This document shows, one piece after another, positions 21,731-32,333 of a stretch of DNA of 64,000 nt (position 1 is its first letter; every line of letters starts with the position of its first letter). Location of the stretch: positions 1-64,000 of the forward strand of contig NZ_VULR01000004.1 in NCBI RefSeq assembly GCF_009696605.1, given 5' to 3'. Below the pieces are notes generated by a model that worked only from the letters and a program-made list of their open reading frames with translations, searched no databases and was not told the DNA's origin. Position numbers and translations under genes: made by a program. Source of the DNA: Anaerosalibacter bizertensis. Lineage in GTDB: Bacteria; Bacillota; Clostridia; Tissierellales; Sporanaerobacteraceae.

Positions 21731-21759
21731 AATAAAAAATCGGGATTATAAATCCCGAT
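21731..21759 (-). terminator. Terminator between sigK and the lipoprotein gene
   Basis: ATCGGGATT and AATCCCGAT form a 9-bp stem with an ATA loop. On the - strand it is followed by a T-rich run, so it mainly ends the lipoprotein transcript. The + strand side lacks a clear T run. Confidence 0.8.
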
Positions 21760-21768
21760 CTTATGTTA

Positions 21769-22371
21769 TTACATATTAGGAGTAATCCTTCTTAATATTT
21801 CTTGAATTTCTTTTGAAAAACCAGAAATAGGTTTTCCGTTACGTATATCTCTAGCCATATTACTTAATCTTTGATATAAATCTGGATCCGCCGTAACACT
21901 TACGTTATCAATTTTATCATCTGTATCTTTTACTATTTTTCTTACCTTTCCTTTTAAATCATCAGTTATGTTACCTTCTAGATTATTTTTCATATCAATG
22001 CCAACTATAGCAGTATCTCCAGATATTACAACAGTAGCACTATTTACATCATTTAAATTAGCAACTTTTCTAGCTATATTTTCTGCTCGATCAGATAGAT
22101 TTCTGTCAACATTATTAGTCATATCCCTAGTATCATTTGTTCTCGTATTATCTGTTGCATTTCTTCTAACATCTTCTCCTACATTATTATTGTCATTAGG
22201 ATTGCTGTTCAAATCAGTATCCGTTCTGTCTATATTATCCCTTGTATCTGTGCCTACTCTATTTTCCACCCTGTTATTTTTAACATTGGGTTTTTGAGGC
22301 TGACAACCAGTTGCTAATAAAACAAATCCTAATGACAAAATTAAGAACATAAAAAATTTGTTATTTTTCAA
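21769..22371 (-). CDS. YhcN/YlaJ-family sporulation lipoprotein
   Basis: The only minus-strand gene. The 200-residue product has a lipoprotein signal ending in LLATGC, a linker very rich in Asn, Asp, Arg and Thr, and a C-terminal YhcN/YlaJ domain (VNSATVVISGDTAIVGIDM, then VSVTADPDLYQRLSNMARDI). Family members are forespore or spore-coat-associated lipoproteins involved in germination or coat. The start is taken as TTG 22371 because GGGAGG lies eight bases upstream; the in-frame GTG at 22380 overlaps that ribosome site. Confidence 0.85.
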   Translation of the reverse strand: MKNNKFFMFLILSLGFVLLATGCQPQKPNVKNNRVENRVGTDTRDNIDRTDTDLNSNPNDNNNVGEDVRRNATDNTRTNDTRDMTNNVDRNLSDRAENIARKVANLNDVNSATVVISGDTAIVGIDMKNNLEGNITDDLKGKVRKIVKDTDDKIDNVSVTADPDLYQRLSNMARDIRNGKPISGFSKEIQEILRRITPNM

Positions 22372-22490
22372 AATTTTCACCTCCCATAATTATTGTGTCA
22401 TATTATTTTTTTTTTATTAAGGGATTTTATTTATTAATTGCATTAAATAGGAAACCGGTTATCATAACAAATATTATCATAATAGATATA

Positions 22491-23405: not shown

Positions 23406-23436
23406 TATTAATATTTTAAAATGAAGGGTGAATTTT

Positions 23437-24558
23437 ATGTTACTTAATCAAAAGGAATTCAGGAATGTTTCGATCATAAGGTTAGTTGATTTAGTAATAA
23501 ATGAAGCCATAAAAATGAAAGCTAGTGATATACATATAGAACCATTTTCTAATGAAATTAGGATTAGATTCAGAATTGATGGAGATTTAATGGATATTCA
23601 GAACCTTCCTATAGAATACTTGTCATCTATAACCACAAGAATAAAAATAATGGGCAAAATGGATATAGCTGAAAAAAGAGTTCCTCAAGATGGAAGTATG
23701 GAATTTTATTTTGAAGATAGACAGATAGATTTACGTATATCTAGCTTACCAACAGTGCATGGAGAAAAAATAGTCATAAGAATATTAGATAGGGATAGTT
23801 TTATACTTTCAAAGGAAGAACTTGGACTCTATTCGAAGAATTTAGAATCTTTTGAAAAGATTCTAAAACAGCCTTATGGAATAATACTAGTAACGGGACC
23901 TACTGGAAGTGGCAAGACTACAACTTTAGCTTCTATGATAAATGAAATAAATGAAGAAAGGAATTGCCATATTATTACTTTAGAAGATCCTATAGAATAT
24001 GTACATATCCATAATCAAAGTATTATTAATCAAAGGGAAATTAAAAATGACACTTTAAGTTTTAGCAAGGGTTTAAGAGCAGCCTTAAGACAGGATCCAG
24101 ATGTGATTCTGGTTGGAGAGATGAGAGACTTAGAAACTATTAGCACTGTATTAACAGCTGCTGAAACAGGACATTTAGTTATTTCAACTCTTCATACTTT
24201 AGGTGCAGCTAAAACTATGGATAGGATAATAGATGTATTTCCACCAGAGCAACAAAGACAGATAAAAGTTCAGCTAGCCTCTGTTATACAAGGGATTATA
24301 TCTCAACAACTATTAAAAAGTATAGATGGGAATAGTAGATTTGCAGCTTTTGAAATCATGATAGCAACCCCAGCTATAAGAAATCTAATAAGGGAAGGTA
24401 AAAATTATCAAATAGATACAGTTATTCAAACAGGGAAAAAACATGGAATGCAAACTATGGATAATGCAATTTTAAATTTATATAATAAAAGACTTATCTC
24501 TAAAGAAATAGCTTTGAGTGGATCTATAAATAAAGATATGTTGAGCAAATATCTTTAG
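23437..24558 (+). CDS. Type IV pilus ATPase with GspE/PilB front and PilT-like back
   Basis: A hexameric-type secretion ATPase of 373 residues that powers pilus extension and/or retraction. Residues about 25-130 are GspE/PilB-like (ASDIHIEPFSNEIRIRFRID, RVPQDG, SLPTVHGEKIVIRILDRD). The Walker A motif is GPTGSGKT (144-151). The C-terminal half is PilT-like: GEMRDLETI, AAETGHLVISTLHT and an exact AIRNLIRE motif at 303-310. The long N-terminal domain and the zinc tetracysteine of PilB are missing. No second pilus ATPase is in this operon. ATG 23437 follows AAGGGTG by six bases. Confidence 0.88.
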   Translation: MLLNQKEFRNVSIIRLVDLVINEAIKMKASDIHIEPFSNEIRIRFRIDGDLMDIQNLPIEYLSSITTRIKIMGKMDIAEKRVPQDGSMEFYFEDRQIDLRISSLPTVHGEKIVIRILDRDSFILSKEELGLYSKNLESFEKILKQPYGIILVTGPTGSGKTTTLASMINEINEERNCHIITLEDPIEYVHIHNQSIINQREIKNDTLSFSKGLRAALRQDPDVILVGEMRDLETISTVLTAAETGHLVISTLHTLGAAKTMDRIIDVFPPEQQRQIKVQLASVIQGIISQQLLKSIDGNSRFAAFEIMIATPAIRNLIREGKNYQIDTVIQTGKKHGMQTMDNAILNLYNKRLISKEIALSGSINKDMLSKYL

Positions 24559-24573
24559 TAAGGCGGTGATAGT

Positions 24574-25782
24574 TTGATTTATAATTATAAAGCCGTTTCA
24601 AATAAAGGGGAAATAATTGAGGGAAGCTGCGAAGGGGAAAATTTAGATGAAGTTCTAGAAAAAATAAGAACTAATAAGTATCTTCCTATATCTGTTGAAA
24701 AATCTAAGAATAATAGGCTAAGAACTAATATAGCTTTTAAAACAAAAGTTAGTAAAAAAGATATGGCAATATTTTGTAGACAATTTTATACAATGGTTGA
24801 TTCAGGAATAAGTATTATAAATTGTTTAGAAGTTCTTAAAAAACAGACTGAAAATAAAATACTTAAAGAAGCTATTGGACAAGTTTATAATGAAGTACAA
24901 AGAGGAATGACCCTCTCAGAAGCTATGAAAAAAGATAAAGATATTTTCCCGGATTTTTTTATAAATATGGTAGAAATAGGAGAAGTTAGTGGTACTTTAG
25001 ATATAATTTTACATAGAATGTCCATTTATTATGAAAAAGAAGATAAAATTGAAAGTAAAGTGAAATCAGCAATAATATATCCAATTATTTTAATTATAGT
25101 ATCTGTATTTGTAATTATATTTTTACTTACTATGGTACTACCTACCTTTATAAGTATATTTGAAAGCAATAATGTATTGTTGCCAGTACCTACAAGGATA
25201 CTGCTAAATATTAGTAATAGTTTAAAAAACCATTGGTATTTATATTTAATTTTATTTTTAATTCTTATATTAACAATAAACTCTTATAAACAAACTCAAG
25301 ATGGTAGAATATTTTTTGATAGATTAAAAATCAAATTGCCAGGTATAAAGAAAATCAATTCTAAAATTATAACTTCCAAATTTACTAGAACACTTTCTAC
25401 ATTATTATTCAGTGGAATTCCTCTTATTCAGGCTTTAAAAGTAGTAAATAAAATCATAGAAAATGAAGTTGTAGTAAAAGAACTTGAAGAAGCTATTGAA
25501 AGTATAGAAAAAGGTTTACCTCTTTGGAGAAGTATTGAGGGAATAAGTGTATTTTCCCCAATAGTTAAATCTATGATAAATGTTGGGGAAGAATCAGGCT
25601 CTCTTGATAAGCTTCTTGATAAAACTGCAGATTTTTATGAAGATGAGGTAGATATGTTATTTCAAAGAATGAACACTATAATAGAACCTGTACTTATAAT
25701 AATCATGGCTTTCATTATTGGATTTATAGTAATTGCTATGGCAATACCAATGTTTGATATGGTAAACATTATTCAAATGTAA
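24574..25782 (+). CDS. pilC: Type IV pilus inner-membrane platform protein PilC/GspF
   Basis: A 402-residue membrane protein with two GspF domains (about residues 65-190 and 265-390) and three hydrophobic spans. It shows FCRQFYTMVDSGISIINCLE in the first repeat and FTRTLSTLLFSGIPLIQALK in the second. The protein couples the cytoplasmic ATPase to pilin polymerisation. TTG 24574 follows GGCGGTGAT, 15 bases after the ATPase gene. Confidence 0.95.
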   Translation: MIYNYKAVSNKGEIIEGSCEGENLDEVLEKIRTNKYLPISVEKSKNNRLRTNIAFKTKVSKKDMAIFCRQFYTMVDSGISIINCLEVLKKQTENKILKEAIGQVYNEVQRGMTLSEAMKKDKDIFPDFFINMVEIGEVSGTLDIILHRMSIYYEKEDKIESKVKSAIIYPIILIIVSVFVIIFLLTMVLPTFISIFESNNVLLPVPTRILLNISNSLKNHWYLYLILFLILILTINSYKQTQDGRIFFDRLKIKLPGIKKINSKIITSKFTRTLSTLLFSGIPLIQALKVVNKIIENEVVVKELEEAIESIEKGLPLWRSIEGISVFSPIVKSMINVGEESGSLDKLLDKTADFYEDEVDMLFQRMNTIIEPVLIIIMAFIIGFIVIAMAIPMFDMVNIIQM

Positions 25783-25809: not shown

Positions 25810-26202
25810 ATGATTAAAAATTTGAAAATGGAAATTAAGAATAATAGTGGTTTTACTTTAATTGAACTGATATTAGTTATTGCTATACTGGCAATACTTT
25901 CAGCAATTGCAATACCAAAAATAGGAAAGACTAAAGAAGCTGCAGAGATTGCTGCTCATAATACTAATGTAAGAACATTAGAAAGTGTGGCTAATACATA
26001 TATTTTAGACAAAGGTTTACCATCTGCTCAAAAAACAATAATTGTAGATGATACTGATAACAATGAATTAAAAGAGTATATTCAAGAGTCACCAAAAATT
26101 CCTGATATTATAAAAAAGGAGAACTCAAATAGTAAATATTATACAGTTACAATTGATAAGGATGGGAAAATAGAAGTAAATCCAGGTAGAAAACAAAATT
26201 AG
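25810..26202 (+). CDS. pilA: Type IV major pilin (PilA-like)
   Basis: A 130-residue prepilin. The short leader ends at glycine and the mature protein begins FTLIELILVIAILAILSAIA, with the required Glu5 and a hydrophobic helix. The globular part is small and lacks cysteines, unlike the disulfide-bonded pilins of many Gram-negative bacteria. Its place directly after pilC and before the prepilin peptidase, with a strong G-rich ribosome site, makes it the best candidate for the main pilus subunit. Confidence 0.92.
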   Translation: MIKNLKMEIKNNSGFTLIELILVIAILAILSAIAIPKIGKTKEAAEIAAHNTNVRTLESVANTYILDKGLPSAQKTIIVDDTDNNELKEYIQESPKIPDIIKKENSNSKYYTVTIDKDGKIEVNPGRKQN

Positions 26203-26214
26203 AGGATATTGGAT

Positions 26215-26973
26215 ATGAAGATAATTATATTAACTTTAGGTTTAATTATAGGATACTTTCTAAATTTATATATATACAGACTATTATGGGAAGAGGGCTT
26301 GGTTGCCCCTTCTTCCCATTGTTTAAAATATTTTACATCTTTTAAATACTATGGGTCTATACTAGGTCCAAGTTTTAACTGTAAAGGTGATAAGTGTAGA
26401 TACTGTAAAGAAAGGGTTGTATTACAGTATCTACTTGTTGAAGCATTGAATGGGTTTACATATTTGACCTTATATAATTACTTTGGTGTTGGTTTACAAT
26501 TTGTATTTTATGCTGTAGTAGTAGATATTTTAATAATTGTTAGTGTTGTAGACTATTATTTTCAAATTATTCCTGATAAATGCCATATATTTCTACTTAT
26601 TTCAACTTTTATATACAAATTGCTTCAATTCCTATTGTATGATATTTCACCATATTTTCTCAATAGTATTATTGGACTAATTGTATCTAGTGGTATATTC
26701 CTACTTATAGCTATTCTATCTAAAGGAGGAATAGGTGGAGGGGATATAAAACTTATAGGTATATTAGGATTTATATTGGGTTTTAAATTATCTCTTTTAA
26801 ATATATTGATATCTTTTTTTGTTGGGGCTTTTGTATCTGTTTTTTTAATATTTTTTAAAATAAAAGATAAAAAAGATTCAATAGCCTTTGGTCCTTTTAT
26901 TTCAATAGCTTTTCTTATTACTATTTTAGAAGGTAAAAATATTATCTTTTGGTATTTTAATAGTTTATTTTAA
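26215..26973 (+). CDS. pilD: Prepilin peptidase (A24 family)
   Basis: A 252-residue membrane aspartic protease that removes the pilin leader and can N-methylate the new N-terminus. A zinc-type region holds CKGDKCRYCKERVVLQYLLVE at residues about 60-80. The catalytic aspartates lie in VVDYYFQIIPD and GIGGGDIKL. Seven to eight hydrophobic segments follow. The first cysteine pair is atypical (only one Cys, in SSHCLKYF). ATG 26215 is nine bases from AGAGG; the in-frame TTG 26209 is too close. Confidence 0.92.
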   Translation: MKIIILTLGLIIGYFLNLYIYRLLWEEGLVAPSSHCLKYFTSFKYYGSILGPSFNCKGDKCRYCKERVVLQYLLVEALNGFTYLTLYNYFGVGLQFVFYAVVVDILIIVSVVDYYFQIIPDKCHIFLLISTFIYKLLQFLLYDISPYFLNSIIGLIVSSGIFLLIAILSKGGIGGGDIKLIGILGFILGFKLSLLNILISFFVGAFVSVFLIFFKIKDKKDSIAFGPFISIAFLITILEGKNIIFWYFNSLF

Positions 26974-27002: not shown

Positions 27003-27965
27003 TTGAATATTAAAAGACTTTTCTTACCTAAAAAAGTATTATCTATTGATATTGGTACTTATGAAACCAAGGTAGTAGAGGGGAAAAAGACTAATGAAGG
27101 ATTAGATATAAATAAAAGTTTTTCTTTTTTAACCCCTGAAGGTGCCTATGAGGATGGGTACATATTAGAAAATGAACTTTTGCATTATGTTTTTAAAAAG
27201 GAATTTAATAAAAATAAACTGTCTTCAAATACAGCTTATATTACAATAAAAAGTAATTCTCTTATTAAAAAAGAAATTGAATTACCATCAGTAAGTCATA
27301 ATGAAATTAAAGGAATATTAAAATACGAGACAAAAGAATATCTACCTGTAGAAATAAAAGATTTTATAATACAATACAAAATTATTAATAAAGTAAAAAA
27401 TAGAGATATAGAAAAACTTAATGTATTATTAGTTGCTGTTCCTAAAAAAATCGTAGAAAGTCATTTTATATTTTTAAAAGATCTGGGATTGAAGCCTACT
27501 GTATTAGATTTGCAGTTAAATAGTTCCAGTAAGTTATTTAAATACAATAGTGTTGTTAATGGAGAATATAATATTGAAAATAATACTTTTGCAATTATAG
27601 ATTTAAGTTATTTAAGTACTGATGTAACTATAATTAAAAATGGAGATATTTTGTTAAATGAAAATATCCCAGATTCTGTTCAATTATCTGAAGAAGGACT
27701 AAATAGAGGAACAAGGAATATTAATAATTTAATAGAAAAAATAAGTTTGATTTTTCAAAAATATAAAACAAAACATATAAAGGATCAAATTGAAATGATT
27801 TTTTTATATGGAGGTTTTTCTAATATAGAAGATATAGATTTGATATTTGAGAATAGTTTGAATATACCTTCAGTTATAGTAAAAAGTATGGATAAAATTT
27901 ATTTAAGTGAAGATTTAAATAAGTATGTAAACTGTATAGGATCTATTATTAGAGTTGAGGGGTAG
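27003..27965 (+). CDS. pilM: Type IV pilus assembly protein PilM
   Basis: A cytoplasmic actin-like protein of 320 residues. It has the phosphate-1 motif VLSIDIGTYETKVVEG and a second nucleotide motif AIIDLSYLSTDVTII, then a glycine pair in FLYGGFSNIEDI. PilM binds the cytoplasmic end of PilN and connects the inner-membrane alignment complex to the ATPase. TTG 27003 follows AAGGAGGAAG. Confidence 0.9.
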   Translation: MNIKRLFLPKKVLSIDIGTYETKVVEGKKTNEGLDINKSFSFLTPEGAYEDGYILENELLHYVFKKEFNKNKLSSNTAYITIKSNSLIKKEIELPSVSHNEIKGILKYETKEYLPVEIKDFIIQYKIINKVKNRDIEKLNVLLVAVPKKIVESHFIFLKDLGLKPTVLDLQLNSSSKLFKYNSVVNGEYNIENNTFAIIDLSYLSTDVTIIKNGDILLNENIPDSVQLSEEGLNRGTRNINNLIEKISLIFQKYKTKHIKDQIEMIFLYGGFSNIEDIDLIFENSLNIPSVIVKSMDKIYLSEDLNKYVNCIGSIIRVEG

Positions 27966-27969
27966 CTGT

Positions 27970-28545
27970 ATGAAAGATTTAAATTTTTTTAATCATTATA
28001 CGGAAAGTAAGAAATTTAAAATTGAAAATATATACTACTTGTTTATATTATTTCTTTTAATATCAATATTTTTTTATAGTTTTATAAACCAAATAAAGAT
28101 AAATAATCTTTCTAAAAAGGTAAGTAATTTAAAAACACAAGTAGAGAATGAAGAAATCAAGACTAAAGTTAATAAGCTAAGAAAAGAAAAAGATGAGATT
28201 AATAAAGTTGAAAATAATATTAAACAGTTAAAATTATTAGATGAATTTATTAAAAAAGAAGATAAAATTAATGAAGAATTAATAAAGGATATAAATTTAA
28301 GAATACCAGAAAATGTTTTTCTAATCTCAATAGAATTTAACCTATCTTCTATTGAGATTAAAGGAATTAGCGGAGATAAACTATCTATTGCTCAATTGGA
28401 ACGTAACTTGAATGAAATAAAAAGCTTTAAGAATGTCTTCATTTCAAATATATATTTTGAAGAAAACCATTATAGTTTTTCTTTAAGTATAAGTTTAAAA
28501 GATGAGGATGTGAAGGATGATGAAGAAAAAGATGAGATTAAATAA
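27970..28545 (+). CDS. pilN: Type IV pilus assembly protein PilN
   Basis: A 191-residue single-pass protein: a short cytoplasmic N-terminus containing MKDLNFFNHYTE (the PilM-binding kind), one membrane helix at about residues 20-40, a lysine-rich coiled coil, and a small alpha/beta domain (NVFLISIEFNLSSIEIKGIS). ATG 27970 follows GAGGGG; the gene overlaps the downstream pilO-like gene by 29 bases. Confidence 0.85.
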   Translation: MKDLNFFNHYTESKKFKIENIYYLFILFLLISIFFYSFINQIKINNLSKKVSNLKTQVENEEIKTKVNKLRKEKDEINKVENNIKQLKLLDEFIKKEDKINEELIKDINLRIPENVFLISIEFNLSSIEIKGISGDKLSIAQLERNLNEIKSFKNVFISNIYFEENHYSFSLSISLKDEDVKDDEEKDEIK

Positions 28546-29743
28546 AAGGGAAAAAGATCTTTTAATATTATTAGGAATTATAATAACCTTTTGTTTTTTT
28601 CAAAGAAAGATTTTTCCACACCAAAAGCAAGAGATATTAAAATTAGAAGAGCAGAAGCTTAAGTATGAGAAAGAAATTATAAATATGCTTAATATACTAG
28701 ATGAAAAAGAAAAAATCAAAGCGAACTCTATTAGAATGAATAGGGAAAAAGATAGGGCCGGTCTTCAATACTTTTCTAAATTAGAACAATCTCAAATTAT
28801 ATATTTATTAGACAGTATTTTAAATGAATGCAAACTTAAAATACTAGATATAAATTTTTCTCAACCAGAGATTGAAGAGTTAACAAATAATATATTTTAT
28901 AAAACCATGAATTTATCTATATCTTATAAGGGGAGTTATGAAGAGCTTTTAGAGTGTTTAAATAAAATAAGAAATAGTCCAAAAAAATTTTTAATAACTA
29001 ATCTTACTATAAATAGAGAAGATAAGGAGATTTTAATAGGGGAGATTGGCTTAAAAGTATATAGCATGGAAAATATTTTTGATGAAAAAGATAATATAAG
29101 TGTTATGAATGCAGACTTAAATCCAGATAGAAAGAGCCCTTTTGATTCTTTACAAGAATTTGATGATAATAAAGATGAAAATATAGAAGATGGCCTAGAT
29201 AATATTATAAATAAAGAAGCTTATACAGATGAAGATACTATAAATTTTGACAATTATAAAACTAATAATACTGATAGAAATGAAATTATTCAAAGGAATG
29301 ATTTACCAGAAAGAAGAAATGAAGTTTCAGATGATAAAAGTAAGAAAGATAATGGGAAAAATAAAGAAAAACCAAAAAAGGAAGAAAAGCCTTCTAAAAC
29401 GAAGGAAGAATCTAAGGAAAAAAACAATTTGTATTTAGATTTTAGTAATAAAGATATAAAAGTTGATTCTCCAAAGTCTGACGTAGGATTTTGGTTGTAT
29501 TCTCATAATATTTCAACTATAAAATTGAAATTAAGTTTTATAGATCAAGAAAAAAAGAAAGCTTATATTGAAAAATCCTGTGTAGTTAGTGAAAATGGAT
29601 GGAGTTATTTAGAAGTTGAAGTTTTAGAAAGTATATTTTCTTATCCTTTAAAATTGGACAAGATGTATTTTGAATGTGAAAGTAATGATAAAAATTTTAG
29701 TTTCATATTCATTGATGATATAAATATTCAAATGAAAGATTAG
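28517..29743 (+). CDS. pilO: PilO-like protein with charged linker and extra C-terminal beta domain
   Basis: A 408-residue protein. Residues 1-190 resemble PilO: one membrane helix near residues 13-32, a coiled coil, and a ferredoxin-like fold (NLSISYKGSYEELLECLNKI). Residues about 195-305 form a very charged linker rich in Asp, Asn, Glu and Lys. The last roughly 100 residues (starting NNLYLDFSNKDIKV) look like a beta sandwich, possibly carbohydrate-binding-like. PilO is normally near 200 residues, so the extension is unusual. The exact start among ATG 28517, 28520 and 28532 is uncertain. Confidence 0.75.
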   Translation: MMKKKMRLNKREKDLLILLGIIITFCFFQRKIFPHQKQEILKLEEQKLKYEKEIINMLNILDEKEKIKANSIRMNREKDRAGLQYFSKLEQSQIIYLLDSILNECKLKILDINFSQPEIEELTNNIFYKTMNLSISYKGSYEELLECLNKIRNSPKKFLITNLTINREDKEILIGEIGLKVYSMENIFDEKDNISVMNADLNPDRKSPFDSLQEFDDNKDENIEDGLDNIINKEAYTDEDTINFDNYKTNNTDRNEIIQRNDLPERRNEVSDDKSKKDNGKNKEKPKKEEKPSKTKEESKEKNNLYLDFSNKDIKVDSPKSDVGFWLYSHNISTIKLKLSFIDQEKKKAYIEKSCVVSENGWSYLEVEVLESIFSYPLKLDKMYFECESNDKNFSFIFIDDINIQMKD

Positions 29744-29776: not shown

Positions 29777-30265
29777 TTGAACAAGCTTATACTACTATTA
29801 AAAAATAAAAAAGGAATGACTTTAATTGAAATAGTTTTAAGTATTACAATTTTATCTATTTTATTGCTAATAGTAGTGCCAGAAAGTAATATTATATTAA
29901 AATTTAAAGAAAGAAAAGAATTATTGGAATTTAAAACTGATTTAAACTGTGCAAGAAATAAAGCTATATGCGATGGAATGAGATACAGCATAAAACTTTT
30001 TCCTAGAAATAATTTTTATTATATCTATAAATATGAGAGGTTTCCAGAGGTTGTTGCTAAAAAGGAATTTAAGAATGGAATAAGAATTGAAAATACGAAT
30101 TTCAATGGTAGTTTGAATAGTAAGCCAGCTGAAATTATGTTTACATCAACAGGAGCACCAAGTAAAGGTGGAAGAATAATTATTAGAAATAAGAAGAATG
30201 AAAAAATTTTAATAACTGTAGAACCTGCTACAGGAAAAGTTAATCTATATATTGATGGGGAGTAA
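29777..30265 (+). CDS. Minor pilin/pseudopilin, GspH/FimT-like
   Basis: A 162-residue prepilin-like protein with a processing site KKGMTLIEIVLSITILSILL (Gly before Met, Glu5 present). The body resembles GspH/FimT minor pilins: early ACIDIC/aromatic strands, then PAEIMFTSTGAPSKGG near the end. It is the first of four small pilin-like genes in the FimT-PilV-PilW-PilX order typical of pilus-tip priming complexes. TTG 29777 has AGGAGAG upstream. Confidence 0.85.
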   Translation: MNKLILLLKNKKGMTLIEIVLSITILSILLLIVVPESNIILKFKERKELLEFKTDLNCARNKAICDGMRYSIKLFPRNNFYYIYKYERFPEVVAKKEFKNGIRIENTNFNGSLNSKPAEIMFTSTGAPSKGGRIIIRNKKNEKILITVEPATGKVNLYIDGE

Positions 30266-30269
30266 AAAT

Positions 30270-30704
30270 ATGAATAGAAAAGGTTTTCTTTTAATAGAAG
30301 TTTTAATTGGAATTTTTCTTCTGGGACTAATTACAACTACTTTTTTTCCTATATTTACTTTAATGAATAATCAATTTAAGAATGTAGAAATTAAAAATGA
30401 TATGAAATATTATGGAGAAACTGTTATAGAAAAAATAAAAGCCTTTGATTTTAATAAAAGTAGTGGAGAATGTATACTTGATATGGAATTAGAAAAACTC
30501 ATTAATATCTTTTGTGAAAATGATGAAGTTGAGGTAGATTTACCTTTAAGTTCTGACAAAGACTTTAGATATAGAGTTAATATATGTAAAAACAACAAGG
30601 GAAATAACTTATGGAAAATTTATGTAAAGGTGCTGCCTAAAAATAATAAAGAAAATATGGAAGGTGTATCCTTTGAAACTATTTTACAGAAACCAGAGAA
30701 ATAA
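30270..30704 (+). CDS. Minor pilin, PilV-like
   Basis: A 144-residue prepilin-like protein: the leader MNRKG is followed by FLLIEVLIGIFLLGLITTTF with Glu5. The body has no clear catalytic feature. It sits second in the minor pilin series, as PilV does. ATG 30270 has GGGGAG nine bases upstream; the in-frame ATG 30252 lacks that site. Confidence 0.82.
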   Translation: MNRKGFLLIEVLIGIFLLGLITTTFFPIFTLMNNQFKNVEIKNDMKYYGETVIEKIKAFDFNKSSGECILDMELEKLINIFCENDEVEVDLPLSSDKDFRYRVNICKNNKGNNLWKIYVKVLPKNNKENMEGVSFETILQKPEK

Positions 30705-31260
30705 TAAAAAAGACATTATTTTACTTGAAAATAGAGGCTTTACTTTGATAGAATTGCCTATGGGCATATGTATAATTGGAATAATAATATTATCTTTATA
30801 TTTTATGTTTAATTATTCCGTTAAAGTTACTCAAATAGGGGAAGAAAAAGAAGAGATTCTTTTAAATGGAAGATATGCTATTGAATATATTAAAAAAGAG
30901 ATTAGGCAATCAGAAGAAATAATATCTACAAGTAAATTTGGTGGATTTAATGAAAAGTTTAAAGAAAACTTTGGATTTGTACTCAAGATCAATAAAGATA
31001 ATGAGAGTAAATATGTATCCTATTACTTTAAAAACGGAAGTATATATAGAATAGTATCTACTAATACAAATACAAAATATCCCTATGCAGGAAGTTTTCA
31101 AGGCCATAATAAAATTGTTGAAAATATAATTTCTATAGAAGGATCAAAGGCAAATTTTCAAAATGATAAAATAGTTTTAAACTTATTAATGGGTGGTGAA
31201 TGGAATAAAAATATAGAATTAAAAACGGAAGTCTTTATGAGATGTCCTACAGATTATTAA
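30673..31260 (+). CDS. Minor pilin, PilW-like
   Basis: A 195-residue prepilin-like protein. The leader is relatively long and basic (about 19 residues), ending in NRG before FTLIELPMGICIIGIIILSL with Glu5. The body shows YAIEYIKKEIRQSEEII and YYFKNGSIYRIV, typical of PilW/PulJ-type proteins. TTG 30673 is six bases from GGAAGGTG and the gene overlaps its upstream neighbour by 32 bases, suggesting coupling. Confidence 0.8.
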   Translation: MKLFYRNQRNNKKDIILLENRGFTLIELPMGICIIGIIILSLYFMFNYSVKVTQIGEEKEEILLNGRYAIEYIKKEIRQSEEIISTSKFGGFNEKFKENFGFVLKINKDNESKYVSYYFKNGSIYRIVSTNTNTKYPYAGSFQGHNKIVENIISIEGSKANFQNDKIVLNLLMGGEWNKNIELKTEVFMRCPTDY

Positions 31261-31274
31261 CTGGGGGGATAACA

Positions 31275-32333
31275 TTGGACAGTAATAGAGGTTCTATAGT
31301 TATTCTATCTATTATAGTTGGGGCCATTATGTTTTTGTTATCTAGTTTCTTATTATACTCTATTTATTTAGATCATCAAATCGCTAATTCTAGTATAGAT
31401 CATCTTCAATCTTATTATTTAGCAGAAGATAAAATATATCTTTGTTTTGACGAAGGAAGTAGTTATTATGATGAATTGATCTTAGGTTTAAAACATTATT
31501 TGAAATACAAACAATTTGGAAATTCTTCAAATAAAAATCTAATAATAATAGATGAAGAAGATTTAAATCCTAAAGATACTAAGAATGAGATTAAATTAGA
31601 CATGTTTATGAAGAATAATATTTTAAATGGAGGTATTTTGGCACAATCTGATTATAAAAATATAAACAAGAGGGTTTATGGAGCATTTACCTTCATTAAT
31701 CCATTTTATAGTACAGATAAACCCATACTTTCTAAAAATACATTGGAAGATTTGGAAGAGGGAAGCATAGATGAATTTATGGAGCAGCTTTTTAATGATT
31801 TTAAATTGGAAACATTTGAAAATGATATTGAGATAATTGAAGTAAATGATTTTCAAAAAATAGATATATATTTTTATGATGAGAAAACTAGAAAGATAAG
31901 ATTAGATTTTTTTAGGTATAAAGATGAAGAAACAGCTGTAGGTAAAAAATATTTATCTACAGATGAAATTTATTTAATTTCAAAGGATAAAATGAAAAAC
32001 TCTGAGATAAATATATATGCAAATGATGTAAGGATCACAGATATTCTAAAAGGAATTATATATGTAGATGGAGATTTGAATTTATATGGCAAGTTAAATT
32101 TTAATGGTATTGTAGCTATAAATTCTGGAAAAGTGAATGTTTATTCTAAAGATAGACCCAAAATAAGAGGAATGTTTATATTAAATAACTATAAAGATGA
32201 CGAGGAAACAATAGAAGAAAAAATAGATTTGCAATATCGCCAAATAGTGGTTGATAGATTTGGATTGTATATACCTGATTATATAAAACCAAATCTATAT
32301 TTAGTAAAAGAGGGGGGAACAATAGAAAAATGA
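31275..32333 (+). CDS. PilX-like pilus assembly protein with beta-rich C-terminal region
   Basis: A 352-residue protein. After NRG follows SIVILSIIVGAIMFLLSSFL, a pilin-like helix without Glu5, and then YYLAEDKIYLCFDEG, the AE(A) pattern of PilX-type proteins. The C-terminal third (DVRITDILKGIIYVDGDLNL and following) has short repeated strands suggestive of a beta-helix or polymer-forming fold. TTG 31275 is chosen because GGGGGG lies just upstream. Its stop overlaps comFB (ATGA). Confidence 0.7.
   Translation: MDSNRGSIVILSIIVGAIMFLLSSFLLYSIYLDHQIANSSIDHLQSYYLAEDKIYLCFDEGSSYYDELILGLKHYLKYKQFGNSSNKNLIIIDEEDLNPKDTKNEIKLDMFMKNNILNGGILAQSDYKNINKRVYGAFTFINPFYSTDKPILSKNTLEDLEEGSIDEFMEQLFNDFKLETFENDIEIIEVNDFQKIDIYFYDEKTRKIRLDFFRYKDEETAVGKKYLSTDEIYLISKDKMKNSEINIYANDVRITDILKGIIYVDGDLNLYGKLNFNGIVAINSGKVNVYSKDRPKIRGMFILNNYKDDEETIEEKIDLQYRQIVVDRFGLYIPDYIKPNLYLVKEGGTIEK

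Follow-up and report, generated by a model that had tools for sequence, protein, structure and literature searches.

A hybrid pilus motor ATPase, made of the N-terminal half of PilB and the C-terminal half of PilT joined within the Walker A codons, is encoded by a single gene in the window analysed here (the whole stretch of 64,000 nucleotides). We consider it very probable that both the fusion and the single hybrid motor are real; the parentage of the two halves, the breakpoint and the absence of the removed piece and of any other motor from the assembly are direct observations. As judged by alignment with related loci, the fusion appears to have arisen when DNA between two adjacent paralogous genes was deleted. 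The chief reservation is that the evidence for the fusion comes from one draft genome of 45 contigs and from one strain.

Parentage and joint of the hybrid gene

The hybrid open reading frame (ORF) starts with a GTG at 23428, and an ATG (23437) lies three codons inside. We prefer the longer form of 376 aa (Table 1), because the pilB gene of a genome of the same genus (G001) begins at the matching GTG. The motifs in which the preliminary description had recognized a PilB-type front (RVPQDG, aa 84-89, and SSLPTVHGEKIVIRILDRD, aa 105-123) and a PilT-type back (GEMRDLETI, aa 230-238, AAETGHLVISTLHT, aa 244-257, and AIRNLIRE) are all in frame, the ORF is open and its catalytic motifs are intact. 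The reported lack of the PilB zinc cysteines was borne out as well: the whole protein has one Cys and thus no zinc CxxC pairs. The long N-terminal domain is indeed absent, but its absence had to be discarded as a trait of the fusion, since the PilB proteins of both same-genus genomes (396 aa; L034:4206-5396 in G001 and L035:3973-5163 in G002) are equally short. Longer PilB proteins of about 565 aa, which do have a long N-terminal domain, occur in the same family.

Table 1. Positions in the window of the hybrid gene, its parts and the pilus genes downstream
Feature	Position	Strand	Basis or remark
Hybrid pilus motor ATPase (PilB N-terminal half and PilT C-terminal half)	23428..24558	+	376 aa
pilB-derived part: N2 domain, linker, start of catalytic domain	23428..23898	+	Residue identities, N-half tree
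Walker A GPTGSGKTTT, aa 157-166	23896..23925	+	In-frame motif
Junction zone within Walker A codons	23899..23912	+	14 bases, parent assignment uncertain
pilT-derived part: catalytic domain with PilT pore-loop extension and AIRNLIRE	23913..24558	+	Residue identities, C-half tree
DVFPPEQQRQIK, putative PilT pore loop 3 extension	24232..24267	+	7 residues missing from PilBs of the genus
AIRNLIRE motif of PilT, aa 316-323	24373..24396	+	In-frame motif
pilC, platform protein	24574..25782	+	Profile matches
Major-pilin-like prepilin	25810..26202	+	Profile matches
Prepilin peptidase (pilD)	26209..26973	+	Profile match
pilM	27003..27965	+	Profile matches
pilN	27955..28545	+	Profile match
pilO-like	28517..29743	+	16.5 vs 22 bits, under the Pfam cut-off; long charged insert
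Three minor-pilin-like ORFs	29777..31260 (29777-30265, 30252-30704, 30664-31260)	+	ORFs, profile matches

In both same-genus genomes, G001 and G002, pilB (396 aa when read from the corresponding start) and pilT (349 aa) are separate, adjacent genes followed by pilC and the same further pilus genes (in G001 the pair occupies L034:4206-5396 and L034:5407-6456, with aroE just upstream of the pilus genes). In the source genome (G000, 2.46 Mb, 98% complete) the single hybrid stands in place of both. This makes the fusion specific to one lineage and lends no support to the idea of an established single-motor pilus. More generally, pilB is directly upstream of pilT in 107 of the 129 loci that have both genes (some genomes counted twice), including all 34 of the loci L004-L037.

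The assignment of the two halves, suspected from motifs in the preliminary description, is carried by residue identities, the DNA alignment and separate trees. Residues 1-150 of the hybrid are identical to G001 PilB at 140 of 150 positions and to G001 PilT at 27, while residues 162-376 match G001 PilT at 206 of 215 positions and G001 PilB at 84. In the DNA alignment the hybrid matches G001 pilB as far as codon 157 (GGA) and G001 pilT onwards from codon 162 (GGC), with 1120 bp of G001 absent from the hybrid locus. The junction CCTACTGGAAGTGG is identical to G001 pilT; it differs by one base from G001 pilB and at another base from G002 pilB. The run shared in register by pilB and pilT at the joint is 10 bases long in G001, and the G002 genes share a run of 26 bases exactly at the joint, the longest run common to that pair; in the hybrid's own lineage, whose true parents are lost, the run may have had another length. 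The joint thus lies at the point of greatest similarity between pilB and pilT, which is what a deletion between short direct repeats would produce. The frame of the hybrid stays open, although 1120 is not a multiple of three, because the joint falls at the same codon in both genes, and an open frame is therefore no proof of selection. As a separate observation, the pilB-derived part (23428-23895) differs from G001 by a synonymous divergence of 0.33; this is the highest value among the compared blocks (0.10-0.26 in the others) and roughly double the 0.15 of the pilT-derived part.

Trees built separately for the two halves placed them in different clades. The trees included 35 PilB-type and 35 PilT-type ORFs together with E. 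coli HofB, GspE and YggR, whose rows form long branches; 15 chosen ORFs belonging to neither motif class were left out, and the trees are quick ones, with SH-aLRT as the only support. The N half groups with the PilBs of G001 and G002 (SH-aLRT 97 and 100), in a tree in which the PilTs split off as one side of a branch with support 100, and the C half groups with the PilTs of the same two genomes (87 and 98), in a tree in which the PilBs are split off in the same way, again with support 100.

Profile scores of the whole hybrid lie between those of its two parents, as they should for a half-and-half protein. With the PilT/PilU model TIGR01420 (pilT_fam) it scores 375 bits, above the cut-off of 319.1, compared with 474 and 469 bits for the PilTs of the genus and 201-202 for its PilBs. 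The GspE model TIGR02533 gives 329 bits (curated cut-off 630, which the short PilBs of the genus also miss with 532-546; PilTs 151-153), and the PilB model TIGR02538 gives 320 bits (curated cut-off 676, likewise missed by the short PilBs with 494-507). The scores with the ComGA model NF041000 (227 bits, cut-off 300) and the TadA model (55 bits, cut-off 373) are under threshold, and membership of the hybrid in GspE, ComGA or TadA was rejected on these model scores together with the half trees.

Motor content of the genome and rarity of the fusion

The hybrid had been described as the only ATPase of its operon, and the T2SSE search of all 45 contigs extended this to the genome, in which it is the sole pilus ATPase of this type found. 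The two other matches are weak P-loop matches in ORFs which we take to encode a RecD-like helicase and a protein resembling ClpC. From the T2SSE search, the search with the removed piece and the reading of these two ORFs, we rejected the presence of another pilus ATPase, be it a separate pilB or a separate pilT, at some other place in the genome. The removed 1.1 kb piece has no copy in any contig: its sole strong match is to a paralogous stretch of 113 bp inside the hybrid gene, and the next best match in the genome extends over 23 bases (E 0.008). The pilC gene next to the hybrid encodes the only platform protein found in the genome, all four N-methyl matches fall within the hybrid's operon, and ComEC is present in all five genomes G000-G004. 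In one genome of the order (G024, 97% complete), the single T2SSE match (C113:3039-3836) has a PilT-like score, and no PilB match was found there.

The hybrid is more than a chance mixture of motifs: a PilB-type N-terminal motif combined with an AIRNLIR-like motif and no CxxC pairs occurs at its own locus and in none of the other 292 ORFs that have both a T2SSE match and a Walker A. This count is based on 295 such ORFs from 165 loci, with overlapping loci kept and the hybrid locus present three times; 8 of 303 ORFs were dropped for having no Walker A pattern, and the ORFs from a genome_contigs scan, which kept 80 of 173 relatives, are included. A protein search in genome samples of the order (249 genomes), the class (391) and the phylum (398), which overlap a little, yielded no other chimera among the matches listed. 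The best scores outside the genus among these matches were 380, 366 and 348 bits, respectively, all under the 510-540 bits expected of a chimera at such distance (a chimera should exceed the best PilT of the same locus by a median of 150 bits and at least 80, as estimated over 129 loci, some genomes twice), and strongly diverged chimeras could be missed by this search. A 48-base sequence spanning the joint had no match in viral_contigs. A natural PilB-PilT fusion is not reported among the titles and abstract openings listed from the open-licence PMC literature, and no title listed under the genus name concerns pili.

State of the operon and competing explanations

The window is collinear with G001 at about 89-95% identity, and the hybrid locus is the only gene-sized difference. 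One further gap, near 21735, reflects 124 bases that are extra in G001. The hybrid's dN/dS against G001 is 0.09 in the N part and 0.12 in the C part, and the other pil genes show values of 0.12 to 0.45 with no internal stops. With G002 as the outgroup, the window branch carries 71 and the G001 branch 73 amino acid changes over the other 10 pil ORFs, with 94 ambiguous; the corresponding figures for the hybrid are 4, 7 and 9. The operon is intact, and its pil genes have evolved no faster in the hybrid's lineage; this absence of decay fits a retained function and a very recent event or loss equally. Three features of the surroundings are recorded here on their own: the PilO-like ORF (408 aa) has a long Lys/Glu-rich insert and an additional C-terminal part; the ORF that closes the pilus operon (31242-32333, 363 aa) is hydrophobic over a stretch near its N terminus and matches no Pfam family at E 0.01; and the gene adjoining the operon on the minus strand (21769-22380) encodes a YhcN/YlaJ-type sporulation lipoprotein.

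We propose that a deletion between the Walker A coding stretches of tandem pilB and pilT deprived PilB of its catalytic domain and PilT of its N-terminal domain, and left one open hybrid gene. The product would be expected to fold as a normal PilT/VirB11-type ATPase, to make hexamers and to contact PilC via the PilT-type pore of its catalytic domain. Its fold model has a mean pLDDT of 90.7 (91-92 around the joint), and the nearest solved structures are Geobacter PilT and PilB chains; being a monomer built on an alignment of 40 sequences, the model is uninformative on direction. Seven residues of the hybrid in the pore-loop region are missing from the PilBs of the genus, and an extension of pore loop 3 is described as a PilT feature, as AIRNLIRE is described as a PilT motif (PMC5424180 and PMC6762196, respectively).

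Among the rival explanations, the one that survives best is a loss-of-function allele of the sequenced strain, owed to domestication, phage resistance or drift, such that the pilus is no longer made. We regard this as possible, and hold it tentatively. The PilB-type extension motor is gone, accidental deletions between short direct repeats are common, and the rest of the window has no further gene-sized gap against G001. On the other hand, the remaining pil genes carry no stop, frameshift or excess of amino acid changes, and the hybrid itself is an intact ORF with its catalytic motifs.

It seems unlikely, by our analysis, that the hybrid is a working two-way motor, in which natural deletion would have merged a PilB-type N2 and a PilT-type catalytic domain able on their own to extend and retract a type IV pilus, a return from two specialised motors to one like that of Tad pili. 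Such a motor would fit with a sole ATPase within an operon otherwise complete and intact, with pil genes that changed no faster on the window branch and with the retention of ComEC, by which DNA uptake could still require a moving pilus. The low dN/dS of both halves would also agree with it, but is no sign of selection on the hybrid, because the fusion may be younger than most of the divergence from G001. A PilB-like CCOCCO state is reported to be possible for PilT (PMC6858323), and CpaF alone drives Tad pili in both directions (PMC11300603); a two-way ancestral motor has also been proposed (PMC6668835). However, CpaF belongs to a different subfamily, as the TadA score of the hybrid indicates, the pore features of the hybrid are of PilT type, and a joint at matching codons would follow from a deletion between paralogues with no need of selection.

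An assembly artefact, with the tandem paralogues collapsed at their common Walker A stretch, is rather improbable. The assembly is a draft in 45 contigs, the joint lies where the parents are most alike (the G002 genes being identical there over 26 bases), and the parents of the hybrid's own lineage are lost. Against this, the longest in-register run at the joint is 10 bases in G001, the closest genome, the left-over piece is in no contig, and 10-26 shared bases are few for a finished short-read assembly to collapse on. Finally, it is highly implausible that the hybrid belongs to an old intermediate ATPase family (GspE-like or ComGA-like) instead of being a recent chimera: a short single ATPase is architecturally like ComGA, but the ComGA score is below its cut-off and the two halves fall in different clades, each beside its same-genus parent.

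Motor direction and comparison with known systems

For the PilB/PilT fusion that we take to be real, the question is in which direction it acts. Because it would contact PilC via the PilT-type pore of its catalytic domain, its default action could quite possibly, if short of an even chance, be more PilT-like than PilB-like. A laboratory chimera of PilU(N) and PilT(C) is described as giving near-wild-type transformation, pointing to the C-terminal domain of PilT; the swap joined two retraction motors, however, and it failed for the MSHA pilus (PMC6762196). Extension of one pilus is stated to need PilT, though PilT is probably not its driver (PMC9815625), and a Gram-positive pilus survey lists pil operons both with and without pilT (PMC3244431). 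From what is reported of PilU/PilT, PilT and CpaF we infer that lost or weakened extension would be the likeliest consequence of a PilT-like default, two-way action being less likely; overall, two-way action is no more probable than a loss of extension. With the dedicated extension motor gone, pilus assembly would be weak or absent in this lineage unless the hybrid also extends, and if the pilus is weakly or not assembled, the deletion should be recent.

What determines whether PilB pushes and PilT pulls, and which domain decides, is an open question in the field. A PilB N2 domain on a PilT catalytic domain, in an otherwise intact operon with no other motor, would amount to a natural test of how the direction of a pilus motor is determined: it asks whether the cell makes pili and whether these pili retract. 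The hybrid would demonstrate, too, that a single step can reverse the division into two motors.

Compared with the PilT of the genus (TIGR01420; G001), the hybrid is alike from the Walker A on, including the pore-loop extension and AIRNLIRE, but its N-terminal half is PilB, without a PilT-type N2. With the short PilB of G001 it shares the N2 domain, RVPQDG, SLPTVHGEK, the start of the catalytic domain and the lack of a long N-terminal domain, but its catalytic domain is exchanged after the Walker A and has no zinc CxxC pairs. The PilU(N)-PilT(C) chimera of Vibrio cholerae resembles it in placing the N-terminal domain of another motor on a PilT catalytic domain, whereas that protein was engineered and both its parents are retraction motors (PMC6762196). 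CpaF/TadA of Tad pili (PMC11300603) likewise provides one ATPase per pilus system, but it represents a distant subfamily and, unlike the hybrid, is no fusion of paralogues.
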